A DNA stretch of 7,303 bases, from positions 1 to 7,303 of the forward strand of contig JAHIPW010000039.1 of assembly GCA_018903055.1 (NCBI GenBank). Reading direction: 5' to 3'. Below are positions 1 through 6,549 of the stretch, piece after piece. Numbering within the stretch: position 1 is the stretch's first letter; each line of letters begins with the position of its first letter. The translations under genes were made by a program, and so were the position numbers. Below the pieces are notes generated by a model that searched no databases, had not been told where the DNA came from, and was given only the letters and a program-made list of their open reading frames with translations. Origin of the DNA: DRGV01 sp018903055 [NCBI: bacterium]. Lineage in GTDB: Bacteria > UBP18 > UBA7526.

Positions 1-48
1 CAGGAAGAGGATGATGACTATTAGTCTCTGGCCAGAAGAAAAAGACAT
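1..48 (-). CDS. Start of an unidentified membrane or exported protein (partial)
   Basis: Only the first 16 codons are inside the window: MSFSSGQRLIVIILFL, a short polar start with one arginine followed by a hydrophobic run. This fits the beginning of a signal peptide or an N-terminal membrane anchor. The ATG at 46-48 lies 5 bases after the TAA (54-56) that ends the tail of the upstream nuclease frame. A GGAG at 59-62, inside the last codons of that frame, sits 10 bases before the ATG and is a plausible ribosome binding site. The tight spacing suggests co-transcription, and perhaps translational coupling, with the nuclease gene. The function cannot be told from this fragment. Confidence 0.5.
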   Translation of the reverse strand, partial: MSFSSGQRLIVIILFL

Positions 49-131: not shown

Positions 132-473
132 TCATTCAATGCGATATAGGCCTTCTTTCCATTCCCTCTTTCGTCTATAGGCGGGATCGGTCATGATTCC
201 CCAGTATTCGATGACTATATTCTCCTTGGGAAGATAGAAGTCGGGACGAATGAACTTAGAGGCAATCTCTTTTTCCTGATCATACTCGTATTCAATATTA
301 TGCTCAAAGAGCCAGTCGGCAATCTCCACCTCACCAGAGGACTGGACATTCTCCCCCTTCTTGGTAGAAAGGATCTTGGACATCTCCACCTCCTTCTCAA
401 ACAGTCTCTTCTCAAGGAGCAGGAAGAGGATGACCAGTATCATCCCAAAACTCATAAGAGTAATAAAATTCAT
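132..473 (-). CDS. Membrane-anchored DUF559/VSR-like PD-(D/E)XK nuclease, cut short by in-frame TGA
   Basis: The product is 113 residues to a TGA at 132-134. Residues 3-20 are a hydrophobic segment, followed by a charged linker (about 21-45) and a restriction-endonuclease-like core. The core shows a helix with E50-x-x-A (EIADWLFEHNIEYEY), the motif R-P-D78-F-Y-L-P, then I-V-I-E89-Y-W-G, and a later K106. This matches the small nuclease domains, often fused to UvrD-type or archaeal helicases, with the pattern RPDF..lp...v.iEy.G. Expected activity is cleavage of DNA, here tethered to the membrane. The ATG at 471-473 has GAGG at 484-487, 10 bases upstream, overlapping the stop of an upstream open frame. 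The frame stops before the last strand and helix of the fold, and the missing part follows in the same frame. It lies downstream of comEC. The fold is fairly sure; whether the gene works is uncertain. Confidence 0.7.
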   Translation of the reverse strand: MNFITLMSFGMILVILFLLLEKRLFEKEVEMSKILSTKKGENVQSSGEVEIADWLFEHNIEYEYDQEKEIASKFIRPDFYLPKENIVIEYWGIMTDPAYRRKREWKEGLYRIE

Positions 474-715: not shown

Positions 716-3700
716 CTAACTACCTTTCAGAACTAATGGTCTCTCATGCCGTGAGCGACTGCGCATACTCTCTATCCAATATCTTTTTCCATCAGAGGTG
801 ATAATGACCGCCATATCCTTACTTTCCGTGTAGCGGTCGGTAGTATAGTACTTCTCCACCTCTCCTCGATACTTAGCTAAGGTCTCTTGCATCTCCTTCT
901 CGAGTCGTTTGGCCTCTCTCTTATCCCGTCCAGAGAGCTTGGCATTTCCATAAGAAAGAACCGCGACCCGGGGGTTGACCGCCCTCAGGAAATTAGGGGT
1001 GCTGGAAAGGAGGCTCCCATGAGCCGGGATCTGCAGGATGTCGCCTCTTAAGACATTCCCGGAAGCCACCAATCTCGCTTCTCCCTCCGGGCCAAGGTTG
1101 GAGGTAAATAGGAAGGTATTATTCCCATAGATGAGCCTCATCACTATGGAATTGGCCGAAAGGTTGGAGTAGGCATTTTCGATCCTGGGCTCCATGGGGT
1201 TCAGAATATAGAGTTCTAAATCTCGACCCCGAAATCTCTCCTTAGCAATGATTGTTCCATAGGTCCCCTTCTTATGGACGACCATCCTCTCTTTCAGGAC
1301 TCTCAGGAGTTCCAGATAGGTTTCATAGGTCTGGCGGGTAGCGGGCTCATCTCTATTCTCCAAAAAATGTTTCTCATTCATAAGAGTGAGAAATTCGTCA
1401 TAGGACATATCCGGGCTCGCCTGGCCGGGACCCAGGCTATCGATGAATTGGTTGACCTCGAAGTTCTTAAGGATGGATATCAGTCCTCCCATATGCTCTA
1501 AGCTGGGATTAGTGAGCACTACGGCATCCAATCTCTTAATCCCCTCCTTCACCAAGACCGGGGCGATGTACCTCTCTCCCGTATCCCAGGTGGGGCTGCG
1601 GTATCCCCCATCAATGAGGATATTCTTTCCCTCAGGGGTCTGAATGAGGATGGAGTCCCCGTATCCCACGGAGAGGTAGAGGACCTTCAAAACCGGCTTT
1701 CTCTGGGCAGATAGAGAAGCGATGAAGAAGAGGAGAACAACCAGTCCCACCACGATCCAGGCGCAGATCCTTCCTCTGACTAATCCCTTTCTTTTCTCTT
1801 TAAGTTTTTCTATCTCTTCAGAAAATTCGGCCTGGGTCTCTTTTCCCTTCATCTCTTTCTCGATACTCTTAAGATCTGGACAGGTGAGTTTCTGGTGCAG
1901 GTCATCGAAGTAGACATAGACCAGGACAAGAGAAAAATAACTGGTCAACTGATAGACGGTAGGGGTCTTCTCAAAGGGGTAGCGGAAGATATTGGTGGCG
2001 GCATAGGAGAGCCATAAAAAGAGTTTAACCAGGAGCCAGTTGCCGGCATTGATGAGCAGGGCCAGGTACTGGCCCAACCAGGGGATGATCATCCCTAAGA
2101 CACCGGCCATTATTCCCAATGGAATGATGGTAGTAATGAGAGGAATGGCCATGAAGTTGGCATAGGGGCCGGCATAGGGAACGTGCTTGAAGTAATAGAG
2201 GGAGAGGGGGAACATCATCCCTAAGTTGATGGCTACCTGGGCGCAGAGGAAGGCGAAGAACCACTGGGCGAGAACGAAGCGAAGGTTCCCATCACCTAAG
2301 CCGAACCTGAAGAGGGGTCCTCCCCGTATTAAATTCCCTAAGGCATAAGAGGAAATGGTAGTAATATTCTCTATCTTTCCCTTGAGTCTCTGGAAAGTTC
2401 CTCTATCCATGCCCGGAACCTGGGCAAGTTCCTCTATGCTCTTAAAGCCTCCCTGCTTCTCGCGATAGAGAATGATATTCGCTACCTTTCGTAACCCCGC
2501 AAAGTGATGGCGCTTCTGGATGATATAGGAGACTACAAGAAGTAAAAAAGCAAAGATGATGAACTGTCCCATAGTGTAGAGTTCCTTGAAGGCCTCTTTT
2601 TGGAAGTAGGAGATAAGGGGAAAGATGAAGGCAATGACTAAGAGGGTTACAGATGGAAGGCCTTTCAGTTTCCTCAGATACTTCATGGTGGGAGCGGTAA
2701 TTAGTCCTAAGGATAGAACAGCGCCAAAGGAGAGGGTAAAACTGGCCTCGGTCAAAAACAGCGGGTTGTAAATGAGGATGAGAGTAGCGGAAATGGGGAT
2801 GCCCAAAAGAAGGGAGTAACGCAGGCCAGTGCCCATTGCCCAGAGGAGAAGAACGATGGAGGCCATGATGAAGGCGCGCATGGTGGAGGGGCGGGCGCCG
2901 GTAAGGGCGGTGAAGATCATGAGAGCGAAGAATATCATGAAGAAGAGGGTGAAGGCCGCTGCTTTCTCTCTCGACTTGAACAGGAGAAGAGAGAGGCCGA
3001 AGAGGAGGCCAGCGATTACCGTTACGTGGAGACCGGAGACCGCTATGACATGGATGGTTCCCGCATGGCGGAAAGCGTCCTCCACGCTTAAGGGAGACCA
3101 GGGATAACGGTGGAGCTTTATTAATCCATGACGCAGACCCAGGGTAACCCCACCCAGGAAAGCGCTCTCCGGATAAGGCATAGTCTTCTTGAAGACGGCA
3201 AGCATCTTCTTCTTAATGATCAGGGCGGTCTCTACCCAGAGCCTCCCTCTGGTCTCATTCAGAATCTCAATGGGAGGGGCCCAGCGGCTGGGAAAGGTGA
3301 GTGGGGACTGGGCATAGATCCCACTGTCCATCAGGTATTTCTTATAGTCAAAGCCTCCCGGATTGTTAGCCGGTTGCTCAGCAAATAGGGGGGCGTGTAA
3401 CTTGACGGTATAGCCCAGGGCCTCGGATGGAGATAGCTCTCTATAGACCTCTCCAATCATGGGAGAGATCTTTACCAGTATATCCCCTTTAACCTTCTCA
3501 ACAAAGGGGCCATCCGGGGGTTCGCGTTGAATCTTAGAAGGTCGGAGGATGAGATAGGTATCTTTCTCCACCATCTCTCCGGTTTCCGGATCGGTATGAT
3601 ACCTTACCTCGGGCTCCTTCCAGATCTTCCCAATGACCACCCTCTTATCTCCCCAGTCCTTGCTCAGGAAACGGTTCAGATGATGGGGGGAGGAGGTATC

Positions 3701-4111
3701 TACTTTATTGGTATAGCAGGCGATACCCAAGAGGAGGGCAAGGATAACCAATGAAGGGGTGGTCCATTTCATTCTTGCCGGAGAAAGTTCTGGAGGTTTC
3801 TCTGGGGTAGGGGGAGCCTCGGGGAGCACAGCCGCTGCTGCTTTATCTTTATAAAAGAAAAAGGCGGTCAGGGCCGCCAGAATAGCAATAGTGATCCAGG
3901 CAATGGGGAGATATTGGGGGAGGATGAGGAAGGATTCGGGAAGAATAATTTCCCAGTCCCGAAAGCTGACCCCATGGAAGAAGGCTGTGGCCACGGCCAC
4001 CCCTAAGATGAAGATCCAGCAGAAGAGGATTATCTTTCTTTCTCTTAATCCCATCCCCCTACCGGCCGGTTTCTCTTCTGCTGCCTTTATCATCCCATAG
4101 GCCTCAACCAT
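716..4111 (-). CDS. comEC: ComEC/Rec2 DNA-uptake channel with internal HhH domain and degenerate MBL domain
   Basis: This 1131-residue inner-membrane protein is the channel that carries single-stranded DNA into the cell in natural transformation; most family members are about 700-850 residues. Membrane segments lie near 27-46, 62-88 and 118-132, with a proline-rich linker (96-112). The DUF4131 region follows (about 135-280) with its hallmark NPGGFDYKKYL (250-260). The competence domain (about 315-710) shows VSGLHV (358-363), GARPSTMRAF (405-414) and SFTLSFGAV (457-465). It is interrupted near 484-607 by two extra membrane segments and a ComEA-like helix-hairpin-helix. A charged stretch (747-777) and a last membrane segment (782-800) lead to an MBL domain (807-1112). 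That domain keeps the fold motifs (GYGDSILIQTPEGKNILIDGG) but has lost most metal ligands. The ATG at 4109-4111 has AGGA four bases upstream, a mediocre site; codon 7 is another possible start. The stop is TAG. A 490-base repeat spacer precedes it. Family assignment is secure; activity is not. Confidence 0.95.
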   Translation of the reverse strand: MVEAYGMIKAAEEKPAGRGMGLRERKIILFCWIFILGVAVATAFFHGVSFRDWEIILPESFLILPQYLPIAWITIAILAALTAFFFYKDKAAAAVLPEAPPTPEKPPELSPARMKWTTPSLVILALLLGIACYTNKVDTSSPHHLNRFLSKDWGDKRVVIGKIWKEPEVRYHTDPETGEMVEKDTYLILRPSKIQREPPDGPFVEKVKGDILVKISPMIGEVYRELSPSEALGYTVKLHAPLFAEQPANNPGGFDYKKYLMDSGIYAQSPLTFPSRWAPPIEILNETRGRLWVETALIIKKKMLAVFKKTMPYPESAFLGGVTLGLRHGLIKLHRYPWSPLSVEDAFRHAGTIHVIAVSGLHVTVIAGLLFGLSLLLFKSREKAAAFTLFFMIFFALMIFTALTGARPSTMRAFIMASIVLLLWAMGTGLRYSLLLGIPISATLILIYNPLFLTEASFTLSFGAVLSLGLITAPTMKYLRKLKGLPSVTLLVIAFIFPLISYFQKEAFKELYTMGQFIIFAFLLLVVSYIIQKRHHFAGLRKVANIILYREKQGGFKSIEELAQVPGMDRGTFQRLKGKIENITTISSYALGNLIRGGPLFRFGLGDGNLRFVLAQWFFAFLCAQVAINLGMMFPLSLYYFKHVPYAGPYANFMAIPLITTIIPLGIMAGVLGMIIPWLGQYLALLINAGNWLLVKLFLWLSYAATNIFRYPFEKTPTVYQLTSYFSLVLVYVYFDDLHQKLTCPDLKSIEKEMKGKETQAEFSEEIEKLKEKRKGLVRGRICAWIVVGLVVLLFFIASLSAQRKPVLKVLYLSVGYGDSILIQTPEGKNILIDGGYRSPTWDTGERYIAPVLVKEGIKRLDAVVLTNPSLEHMGGLISILKNFEVNQFIDSLGPGQASPDMSYDEFLTLMNEKHFLENRDEPATRQTYETYLELLRVLKERMVVHKKGTYGTIIAKERFRGRDLELYILNPMEPRIENAYSNLSANSIVMRLIYGNNTFLFTSNLGPEGEARLVASGNVLRGDILQIPAHGSLLSSTPNFLRAVNPRVAVLSYGNAKLSGRDKREAKRLEKEMQETLAKYRGEVEKYYTTDRYTESKDMAVIITSDGKRYWIESMRSRSRHERPLVLKGS
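776..1693 (-). other. MBL domain of ComEC lacking most metal ligands
   Basis: The domain starts with VLKVLYLSVGYGDSILIQTP (residues 807-826) and ILIDGG, which is diagnostic of ComEC MBL domains. Where active members have T-H-P-D-x-D-H, this one has T867-N-P-S-L-E-H873: the first histidine and first aspartate are gone, the second aspartate is glutamate, and the last histidine remains. The L-T-G-D ligand is F-T-S-N (N1005). The H-H-G-S motif is A1030-H-G-S. The scaffold through VNPRVAVLSYGNA (1045-1057) is intact. The pattern fits a fold kept for structure with weak or no nuclease activity. Confidence 0.75.
2369..2503 (-). other. ComEA-like helix-hairpin-helix embedded in ComEC
   Basis: Residues 537-581 of ComEC include VANIILYREKQGGFKS, then EELAQVPGMDRGTFQRLKGKI. 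This is the usual ComEA pattern 'A..II.yRe..G.Fks.eeL..V.Gi....~~Lk..I': the second helix of one hairpin, the YRE-x-x-G-G-F turn, and a second hairpin centred on V-P-G-M. A membrane segment (about 512-531) comes just before it, as in ComEA, where a membrane anchor leads to the DNA-binding domain. The first hairpin is poorly formed (AGLRKVA). HhH domains bind the DNA backbone without sequence preference, so the likely role is holding incoming DNA near the channel. Which side of the membrane it faces cannot be read here. Confidence 0.75.
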
Positions 4112-4926: not shown

Positions 4927-6549
4927 TTAGACCTCCAGGCTTCCGTATAGCCTTATTGCTTCTTCCTTCAGGGGGCATTCTAAGTCGCAGCTTACGCAGT
5001 ATTTATTTATCTTTCTGGGAAAGTCGTTCAGTTCCGTGGCCCGGCGGATATCCTCTGCCGCCTGGTCCACGGTAATGATGAGTCTATCAATATCCTCTTG
5101 GGTTCTTTTGGTCTCCAATCGCTTGCCAAACCTCAGGTAATCGAAGTATAAGTGATCGAAGGTAAAGTTTAAAACAATAGGAGCCGCCCAGTAGTAGGTG
5201 GTAAACTGGAGGTCGTTATCCAAGTCCTCCTGAGTGGGCTGGCGGGGCTCGGTCTTGTAATCGATTAATATATGACTACTATCGGGGAGTTCGTCCACCC
5301 GGTCCATATAACCAATCATGATGGCCTTCTCCCCAATGGGTAATTCAAAGTATTTCTCTAAATACCTGGCTCGCTGGAAGCCTTTCTTAATGAATTTCTG
5401 GTAGTAATCCTTCACCATCTTCAGCCCGTCCTGATAGTACCTCCTCTCCTCTTCCTTATTCCGATAACCGATCGGAATCCAGTGCTTATTATAGAGTTTC
5501 AAGAGGTAGCGCAGGGGAGGGGTGGTGAAGAGACCGTCATAGGCATAGAACTCCTCAAAGGTAGTATGGATGCTGGAGCCAAAGGAGAAGAAGAACTTGG
5601 GCTTCATGGGAATCTTATCGATATAGACCGCCTGGTACTGTGCCGGGCATCTCTGGAACATACTCATCTTGGAGTAACTGAGGCGCAGTCTTTCTTTAGC
5701 ATCCGGGATCTCCTTAAACTCCGGGCAGGTCTCCTTATAATCGCACCAGCCACAGAGGGGACCGGTCTTGGGCGAGAAGTCCTCCTTCTGGATGCCCTGG
5801 GCGATATTATGAATGGCCCGTTTAAGGGCCTTTATTCTCTGGGCTTCTCCCCCAATACGGGAGACGCTCACCTTGCGCGGTCGATATTGACCATTCTCCT
5901 GGGCAGCGAGATAGTAGATGGAGAGCCGCTTCGGTTCCCTTCTCCAGTTCTCCTGGCAGGCAATGTGGTAGATATCGAGCTGTAGGGTCTCCTGAACCTC
6001 AGTGGGGTGGAGGGGGCTCTCCAATTCACTCTCATCCTTGATCTTACGGGAGGTCTTATAATCGATGATCTCCCACCCTCCATCGGGAAGCCTATCTACG
6101 CGGTCTATCCTTCCCACCAGTTCATAATCTCCGATCTTTACCTTAAAGAATTCCTCAAGATAGAGGACCCGATTGGGGTCTACCTTGGCTTTCTCATAGT
6201 AGGCCTTCAGGATGCCCCTACCGCGTTCTCTGAAGGCCTCTTCTTCCTCTTTATCCTTATAGGCCGTAGCGATCCAGTTCCTGTGATAAGTAGCCATCAG
6301 ATCCTCTAACTTAGCTTTCTTAGGATCACAGTCTCTGTGATAATCTCTTAGGGTATTATGGATGGTGGAACCAAAGTCTAAGTAAAGGCTGGGCTTGGTG
6401 GGTCTTTTCTCAATATACTGGTACTTATACTTTAAGGGGCACTGACTGTAGGTACTGATTTTGGAATAACTTAATCTCACCGCTCCCCGGAGGAAAAGAT
6501 TACTGATAAACTTTCCAATGAGGGGTATTATCTTCTCAAAGCGAATCAT
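4927..6549 (-). CDS. Tandem RecB/Cas4-like PD-(D/E)XK nuclease with two complete modules
   Basis: The 540-residue protein holds two copies of a RecB/AddB/Cas4-type nuclease domain (PDDEXK_1-like). Module 1 (about 25-280) has RLSYSK, C37, FGSTIH (H64), GRID149RVD, IID163YK165T, Q190/Y194, and a C266-x2-C269-x5-C275 cluster. Module 2 (about 287-530) has RLSYSK, C301, FGSSIH (H328), GYMD416RVD, LID430YK432T, Q448/Y452, and C518-x2-C521-x3-C525. Each has four cysteines placed as for a 4Fe-4S cluster and a complete catalytic set. In RecB, AddB and Cas4 such domains cut single-stranded DNA ends. By my count about 22 of the first 47 residues match between modules, so this is an internal duplication. 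There is no helicase domain. The ATG (6547-6549) follows AAGGGAAGGGAA; a GTG at codon 24 just before RLSYSK would remove a hydrophobic 23-residue N-terminus and is an alternative start. Partner and pathway are unknown. Confidence 0.88.
   Translation of the reverse strand: MIRFEKIIPLIGKFISNLFLRGAVRLSYSKISTYSQCPLKYKYQYIEKRPTKPSLYLDFGSTIHNTLRDYHRDCDPKKAKLEDLMATYHRNWIATAYKDKEEEEAFRERGRGILKAYYEKAKVDPNRVLYLEEFFKVKIGDYELVGRIDRVDRLPDGGWEIIDYKTSRKIKDESELESPLHPTEVQETLQLDIYHIACQENWRREPKRLSIYYLAAQENGQYRPRKVSVSRIGGEAQRIKALKRAIHNIAQGIQKEDFSPKTGPLCGWCDYKETCPEFKEIPDAKERLRLSYSKMSMFQRCPAQYQAVYIDKIPMKPKFFFSFGSSIHTTFEEFYAYDGLFTTPPLRYLLKLYNKHWIPIGYRNKEEERRYYQDGLKMVKDYYQKFIKKGFQRARYLEKYFELPIGEKAIMIGYMDRVDELPDSSHILIDYKTEPRQPTQEDLDNDLQFTTYYWAAPIVLNFTFDHLYFDYLRFGKRLETKRTQEDIDRLIITVDQAAEDIRRATELNDFPRKINKYCVSCDLECPLKEEAIRLYGSLEV

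Follow-up and report, generated by a model that had tools for sequence, protein, structure and literature searches.

Channels of the ComEC/Rec2 family combine a competence domain (PF03772), a DUF4131/OB domain (PF13567) and a metallo-beta-lactamase-like (MBL-like) C-terminal domain (PF00753), and the family as a whole is covered by the model TIGR00361. In the parts of PMC12455585 drawn on here, the strand passing through ComEC is said to be a single one, structural predictions cited there place DUF4131 outside the cell or in the periplasm, and ComFA and ComFC are said to act on the DNA leaving ComEC in poorly understood ways; full-length ComEC is described as hard to produce. The same parts report that ComEC of S. 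pneumoniae has a likely inactive MBL-like domain and is accompanied by a separate nuclease, EndA. ComEA carries a pair of complete helix-hairpin-helix (HhH) motifs, and the excerpts of PMC9747964 used here model its DNA contacts on double-stranded DNA and name four mutated lysines of B. subtilis ComEA (K164, K193, K197 and K199), with K164 and K199 being the two with >2-log effects. An HhH inside the channel domain of ComEC, or the ComEC branch reported below, is not described in the titles and abstracts of the open-licence literature that we searched, and three papers on ComEC (PMC5031224, PMC6299819 and PMC12455585) do not use the terms HhH or helix-hairpin in their main text, as far as these texts were available. 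The arrangement had likewise been unfamiliar to the reader who made the original prediction for this locus.

The window analysed here is an entire contig of 7303 bases from a genome assembly of 1.09 Mb (191 contigs, 85% complete). It contains a minus-strand gene for a 1131-aa protein that we call ComEC2, a name coined in this analysis for a ComEC branch with two extra membrane helices. The features of the window are as follows.

1..48 (-): start (16 codons) of the next gene, truncated where the contig ends (comparison with the G001 ortholog L036:9270-9812)
132..473 (-): small protein, hydrophobic segment near its N-terminus; PD-(D/E)XK-like by eye, Pfam giving nothing significant
716..4111 (-): ComEC2 gene, 1131 aa (ORF; Pfam; TIGR00361; AlphaFold2)
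947..1669 (-): metallo-beta-lactamase-like domain, residues 815-1055 (PF00753, E 1.2e-9; Foldseek)
1493..1510 (-): degenerate metal site, NPSLEH for HxHxDH, residues 868-873 (motif alignment)
2276..2371 (-): linker, residues 581-612 (profile scan, alignment)
2372..2488 (-): HhH of ComEA type, residues 542-580, second helix of HhH1 and complete HhH2 (HHH_3; hhalign; PDB ComEA match)
2519..2581 (-): second extra membrane helix, residues 511-531, unbroken into the HhH (AlphaFold2; 41-row ComEC2 alignment)
2603..2659 (-): first extra membrane helix, residues 485-503, common to the ComEC2 clade (AlphaFold2; 41-row ComEC2 alignment)
3308..3910 (-): DUF4131 (OB-fold) region, residues 68-268 (Pfam PF13567, E 1.3e-13)
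4927..6549 (-): tandem PD-(D/E)XK nuclease, AddB/Cas4-like, the upstream neighbour (PF12705, E 9.5e-63, two stretches)

From its N-terminus the protein consists of three membrane helices, the DUF4131/OB region, a competence channel domain with an insert and the MBL-like domain, i.e. the three domains of ComEC/Rec2 in identical order. All three family features are thus present, and the ComEC/Rec2 equivalog model TIGR00361 is just reached (190.3 bits, cut-off 190.05). PF03772 (E 4e-34) matches in two stretches, residues 343-503 and 618-734, with the insert between them, and for the C-terminal domain Foldseek ranks the nuclease domain of Moorella ComEC first (9ic4, E 1.4e-16). Judged from these matches, the protein is a ComEC-family channel with a ComEA-type HhH inside its channel domain, and DNA transport in transformation is its predicted role. 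In contrast to ComEC/Rec2, it has two additional membrane helices and the HhH insert and is without the HxHxDH metal site. An assembly chimera could be rejected since the identical architecture is found in four genomes, those of the window, G001, G002 and G005, and the other three proteins are 81-85% identical to that of the window. The four HhH-bearing genes span three genera of one family.

The insert runs from residue 484 to residue 607 (nt 2662 to 2291, in ORF 716-4111 of the minus strand), and its position between the two Pfam stretches bears out the prediction that these residues interrupt the competence domain. Two hydrophobic helices lie in it, together with a single HHH_3 match (residues 542-580); both elements had been predicted as one insertion, but the helices proved to be clade-wide and separate from the insertion of the HhH. 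HHH_3 scores 34.8 bits in the full protein (E 1.8e-8, cut-off 27) and 38.9 bits (E 9.5e-10) in the insert scanned alone. The proposed profile search against HhH and ComEA families therefore gave HHH_3 over its cut-off, with the ComEA HhH model TIGR00426 (E 3.6e-8, 33.3 bits, cut-off 53.1) and TIGR01259 both below theirs. In the PDB, residues 532-612 match EEPD1 (9yi2, E 1.1e-5) and ComEA (8dfk, E 5.2e-4) and, weakly, PsbU (E about 0.8), and a weak match of the insert to T2SS protein K was also seen (E 0.19). Alignment of the insert to ten ComEA-like proteins with hhalign gave a probability of 96.8% from a shallow query profile (Neff 1.3).

The module is hence ComEA-like as had been proposed, but it comprises only the second half of the paired HhH domain. 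The HHH_3 match spans profile positions 26-64 of 65, and neither helix 1 nor hairpin 1 of the ComEA pair is present, their place being occupied by the second extra membrane helix. Instead of the two complete HhH motifs of ComEA, the insert retains helix 2 of HhH1 (RKVANIILYREK) and HhH2 in full (FKSIEELAQVPGMDRGTFQRLKGKI). The remaining second hairpin (VPG-M/I/L-D) carries Asp for the usual second Gly in all four HhH-bearing sequences, in which residues 549-567 are identical. Residues 539 to 580 align to the ComEA structure 8dfk without gaps, and on this alignment, with the offset of the chain numbering inferred from the lysine spacing, K164 corresponds to K542 (Arg in G005), K197 to R575, K199 to K577 and K193 to G571, leaving three of the four mutated lysine positions basic. 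The HhH further differs from ComEA in being embedded in a channel and in its predicted cytoplasmic instead of periplasmic location. The AlphaFold2 model, built from a 46-sequence alignment (mean pLDDT 83.5, pTM 0.83), has helices at residues 485-503, 511-552, 559-563 and 570-588 of the insert, with the second hydrophobic helix and HhH helix 2 joined into the single helix 511-552; pLDDT is 68-70 for residues 541-580 and 57 for the insert folded separately. Beyond the HhH, the linker of G001 reads ININTAS, with which a ComEA HhH usually begins, and gives a weak profile match (domain E 0.076), the same scan yielding E 15 for G005 and no match for the window and G002. This signal may go back to a tandem repeat or to a circular permutation and is a lead rather than a result.

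To place the HhH relative to the membrane, we assigned membrane helices from the AlphaFold2 helices and hydrophobicity and obtained three before DUF4131, seven from DUF4131 to the HhH loop and five from this loop to the MBL-like domain, i.e. 12 between DUF4131 and the MBL-like domain. In this assignment, these two domains lie on one side and the HhH on the opposite one. The density of Lys and Arg, counted without the terminal loops and with long loops trimmed to 15 residues per end, is higher in the inside-assigned loops in 39 of the 41 ComEC2 sequences, the exceptions being L072 and L087; for the window the counts are 25/117 inside versus 10/94, and the loop directly after the second extra helix reads QKRHHFAGLRK. 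Helix count and charge rule are two lines of evidence on one shared helix assignment and both are predictions, the topology resting on helix order and charge. The HhH is most likely cytoplasmic, opposite to DUF4131 and to the nuclease-like domain, and as such should not receive incoming DNA. A DNA receptor placed in the channel, as envisaged in the original prediction, is thus not supported: the suggested comparison with the side of DUF4131 gave opposite sides by helix count and charge, and a cytoplasmic location had been listed there as an outcome against the idea.

The spread of ComEC2 that we can give is a lower bound, as it comes from the best 80 of 550 confirmed loci obtained when named genomes were scanned with eight aligned relatives. 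Among the matches listed, the hosts belong to several phyla and include Kiritimatiellae, other Verrucomicrobiota, Elusimicrobia, Lindowbacteria, Riflebacteria, Ozemobacter and others. When 46 ComEC proteins are aligned, two extra hydrophobic loop segments are seen in the 41 ComEC2 and in none of the five canonical sequences. Measured between two fixed points, the loop is 105-183 residues long in 43 of 44 ComEC2 (52 in L161) and 45-70 residues in 39 of 47 canonical ComEC, the other eight having 102. A FastTree reconstruction on the channel core without the insert splits 44 ComEC2 from 47 canonical sequences with a support of 1.0. The tree set contained ComEC of >200 bits and >600 aa plus three added later (91 kept, with shorter or broken ones left out, including the canonical ComEC of the window genome with frames of 248 + 533 aa), and the ComEC2 labels were preset by the score to a profile of the window's relatives, meaning that the separation is independent of this score and the labelling is not. 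By alignment and tree, ComEC2 is one separate clade.

The HhH has a far narrower distribution. Pfam finds HHH_3 in only four of the 46 aligned ComEC proteins, those of the window, G001, G002 and G005. Since 43 of 44 ComEC2 have the long loop and 40 of 44 are without the HhH, the extra spans do not belong to the HhH insertion. A ComEA HhH profile run over the 91 ComEC sequences reached E <1e-5 in the same four only (next E 0.047), and a profile of the insert with its flanking helices, run over 386 genomes, gave full-length matches in four, all from the window's family, and partial ones in 42 more; only the best nine candidates were scored in many of these genomes and misses are possible. Three examined genomes of the phylum of G034 gave no full-length insert match, and 39 genomes of the phylum of G123 gave none in an insert search run without a positive control. 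A widespread HhH insert in ComEC is therefore rejected within the 386 genomes and 91 sequences searched. The eight canonical ComEC with a 102-residue loop (L075, L105, L106, L109, L114, L118, L120 and L122) are without HhH; seven of them are titled Acidobacteria or subgroups of it, and the three inserts inspected (L105, L109 and L114) are Arg-rich. It seems that this loop of the ComEC channel tolerates additions.

For the six pairs of the four HhH-bearing genes, dN/dS is 0.20-0.42 for residues 532-581, a rough ratio from about 50 codons, compared with 0.18-0.22 across the whole gene and 0.15-0.35 in the linker (residues 582-611). These ratios indicate that the HhH segment is under purifying selection, which is weaker than that on the channel or the whole protein.

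Besides the additional helices, the clade is marked by its MBL-like domain. Neither HxHxDH nor HxDxDH is kept in any of the 39 readable ComEC2 sequences; two of the 41 rows (L057 and L085) stop short of the motif or inside it and were not counted. The five canonical ComEC of the same set have HxHxDH (four) or HxDxDH (one). As ComEC of S. pneumoniae is also without the catalytic residues, loss of the motif is compatible with membership of the ComEC family, and it argues against a nuclease function of ComEC2 only. The domain is still conserved in the four HhH-bearing genes, with a dN/dS of 0.13-0.21. A separate MBL protein, whose N-terminus has a hydrophobic segment (seen by eye in the alignment), frequently adjoins ComEC2, and HxHxDH is intact in 10 of 13 such proteins examined, those of G001, L042 and L068 being the exceptions. 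ComEC2 would thus be like the S. pneumoniae pair of ComEC and EndA, as described in the available text, in having a channel with an inactive nuclease-like domain and a nuclease supplied by another protein. In contrast to EndA, this other protein is an MBL that resembles the ComEC nuclease domain itself and is encoded beside the channel, its role being suggested by motif and gene order. ComEC2 appears to split the channel from the nuclease, which could allow each of them to be studied alone.

Upstream of ComEC2, the ORF 4927-6549 carries two PD-(D/E)XK stretches of the AddB/Cas4 kind (PF12705) and has weaker matches to AddB and Cas4 models, under their cut-offs. Unlike in the AddB or Cas4 setting, the nuclease of the window is linked to ComEC2, and the window ORFs scanned with Pfam and NCBIfam include neither a helicase nor a CRISPR gene. 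Relatives of it lie beside ComEC2 in other lineages (L040, L041, L052, L068 and L160), and this recurrent adjacency suggests a functional link. Downstream, the small protein 132-473 ends at an in-frame stop about 30 residues before the G001 copy, and such a protein also lies between ComEC2 and an HhH gene in G001, G002 and G005. By comparison, the 16 codons at 1..48 appear to be the start of the ortholog of the 181-aa ComEA-like HhH protein of G001, in which HHH_3 has an E of 1.5e-15. In G001, with protein domains taken from Pfam, and in G005, where one more frame intervenes, the genes are arranged as PD-(D/E)XK nuclease, ComEC2, small protein, HhH protein, MBL, HhH protein, SLBB-HhH ComEA and canonical ComEC. 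Within 4 kb on either side of ComEC2, an HhH gene was found at 13, an MBL gene at 13 and a PD-(D/E)XK gene at eight of the 30 loci (out of 44) that have at least 1.5 kb downstream. Three of these 30 are the window's own relatives, each with all three kinds of neighbour, and none of the three kinds occurs at the eight counted loci titled Kiritimatiellae or Verrucomicrobia/-ota. The gene cluster is not universal, some members of the clade having it and others not.

Separate HHH_3 proteins over the cut-off were found in all six genomes of the family examined, as was a match to canonical ComEC, and ComEC2 is present in four of them, with none found in G003 (93% complete) and G004 (83% complete). 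The six genomes have 66 HHH_3 matches, four of which are the ComEC2 inserts, and DprA exceeds its cut-off in five of the six, consistent with competence. As both separate HHH_3 proteins and canonical ComEC occur in six of six, the HhH of ComEC2 adds to ComEA-type proteins and does not replace them; the expectation that genomes with the insert might be without a separate comEA was not confirmed. In the genome of the window, the canonical comEC (G000:C57, L043 866-3330) directly follows an SLBB-HhH-like comEA and has the motif HPHADH, and it is read in two frames of 248 + 533 aa; it may be a broken gene or misassembled. In the other five family genomes the frames are 806-819 aa long, the one of G005 with one stop in its far end. 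If the canonical gene is truly broken in this organism, ComEC2 could serve there as the main channel.

We give about an even chance to the HhH of ComEC2 being a cytosolic grip on DNA that emerges from a second import channel. The sequences show that the loop after the second extra helix acquired one and a half ComEA-type HhH motifs in one family-level lineage. Located at the cytoplasmic mouth of the channel, the HhH would then grip the backbone of the emerging DNA without sequence specificity, with K542, R575, K577 and the hairpin amides as proposed contacts, and might thereby hinder back-sliding and present the strand to cytoplasmic partners, e.g. the neighbouring PD-(D/E)XK nuclease. Removal of the other strand might take place on the outer face, in trans, by the separate MBL, and the separate ComEA-like HhH proteins that the cluster encodes might feed the DNA. 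Several observations count against the grip: of the two hairpins the first is missing and the other has Asp for Gly, so that DNA affinity may be low, the HhH segment is less constrained than the whole protein, and a single strand is said to pass ComEC whereas the ComEA contacts were modelled on double-stranded DNA, at least in the parts of both papers used here. Also counting against this reading are the pLDDT of 68-70 of the HhH, the two exceptions to the charge rule, the two of six family genomes in which no ComEC2 was found, the limited spread of the cluster and the cluster MBL of G001, which is without HxHxDH. A natural channel fused to an HhH at its predicted cytoplasmic exit would offer a tractable handle on how DNA is held and pulled after leaving ComEC.

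The missing half of the HhH pair, the Gly to Asp exchange in four of four sequences and the weaker constraint on the HhH than on the rest of the protein would also fit a structural or protein-docking module, in which an HhH that does not bind DNA braces helix 511-552 or docks a cytoplasmic partner. HhH-like domains in GspK or PsbU are examples of such a role, and the weak matches to T2SS protein K and PsbU point in the same direction; yet three of the four ComEA lysine positions are basic and the best matches are HHH_3 and ComEA-type HhH, and we regard this explanation as a serious but rather unlikely one. The insert could also be a neutral relic, a functionless piece put into a tolerant cytoplasmic loop by recombination with neighbouring tandem HhH genes. 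HhH repeats are abundant in the lineage (66 matches in six genomes), the linkers of G001 and, at E 15, of G005 resemble the start of the next HhH unit, and the same loop is long in eight sequences of the canonical group as well. This is improbable, however, given that the HhH is kept in all four ComEC2 genes of the family across three genera, with a dN/dS of 0.20-0.42 and residues 549-567 identical. The least credible reading has the HhH on the outer face as a DNA receptor built into the channel that replaces or supplements ComEA: the ComEA-type sequence and the channel context speak for it, but the topology is predicted inside and separate HHH_3 proteins exist in six of six family genomes, in G001 and G005 even in the same cluster, and we consider it very unlikely. 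Going beyond the cytosolic grip, ComEC2, the MBL, the HhH proteins and the PD-(D/E)XK nuclease might together form a distinct import apparatus parallel to ordinary ComEC, its channel being catalytically dead and the nuclease shifted to another protein; in the window's lineage a cytosolic clamp at the channel exit, a circularly permuted ComEA HhH domain (HhH1 helix 2, then HhH2, then HhH1 helix 1), would ratchet the strand inward and pass it on to the nuclease; this we hold to be a speculative and unlikely extension.

Other large HhH-bearing frames considered as ComEC candidates were rejected, with L155, L156 and L157 having no match to the ComEC profile and L158 matching in the MBL part only. 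The latter (L158:2501-4585, plus strand, genome G246) is a single 695-aa frame in which the MBL part is followed by four HhH units, tandem repeats of the ComEA type. A different combination is found in the two family members that gave no ComEC2 match, G003 and G004, as 578-aa proteins (L012:157-1893, minus strand; L013:1513-3249, plus strand) with an N-terminal hydrophobic segment followed by MBL, HhH, an OB-like part recognised by eye and a second HhH, possibly an exported nuclease with DNA-binding modules. Finally, the genome G034 encodes three divergent ComEC2 paralogs (L039, L040 and L041), two of which adjoin PD-(D/E)XK nuclease genes.
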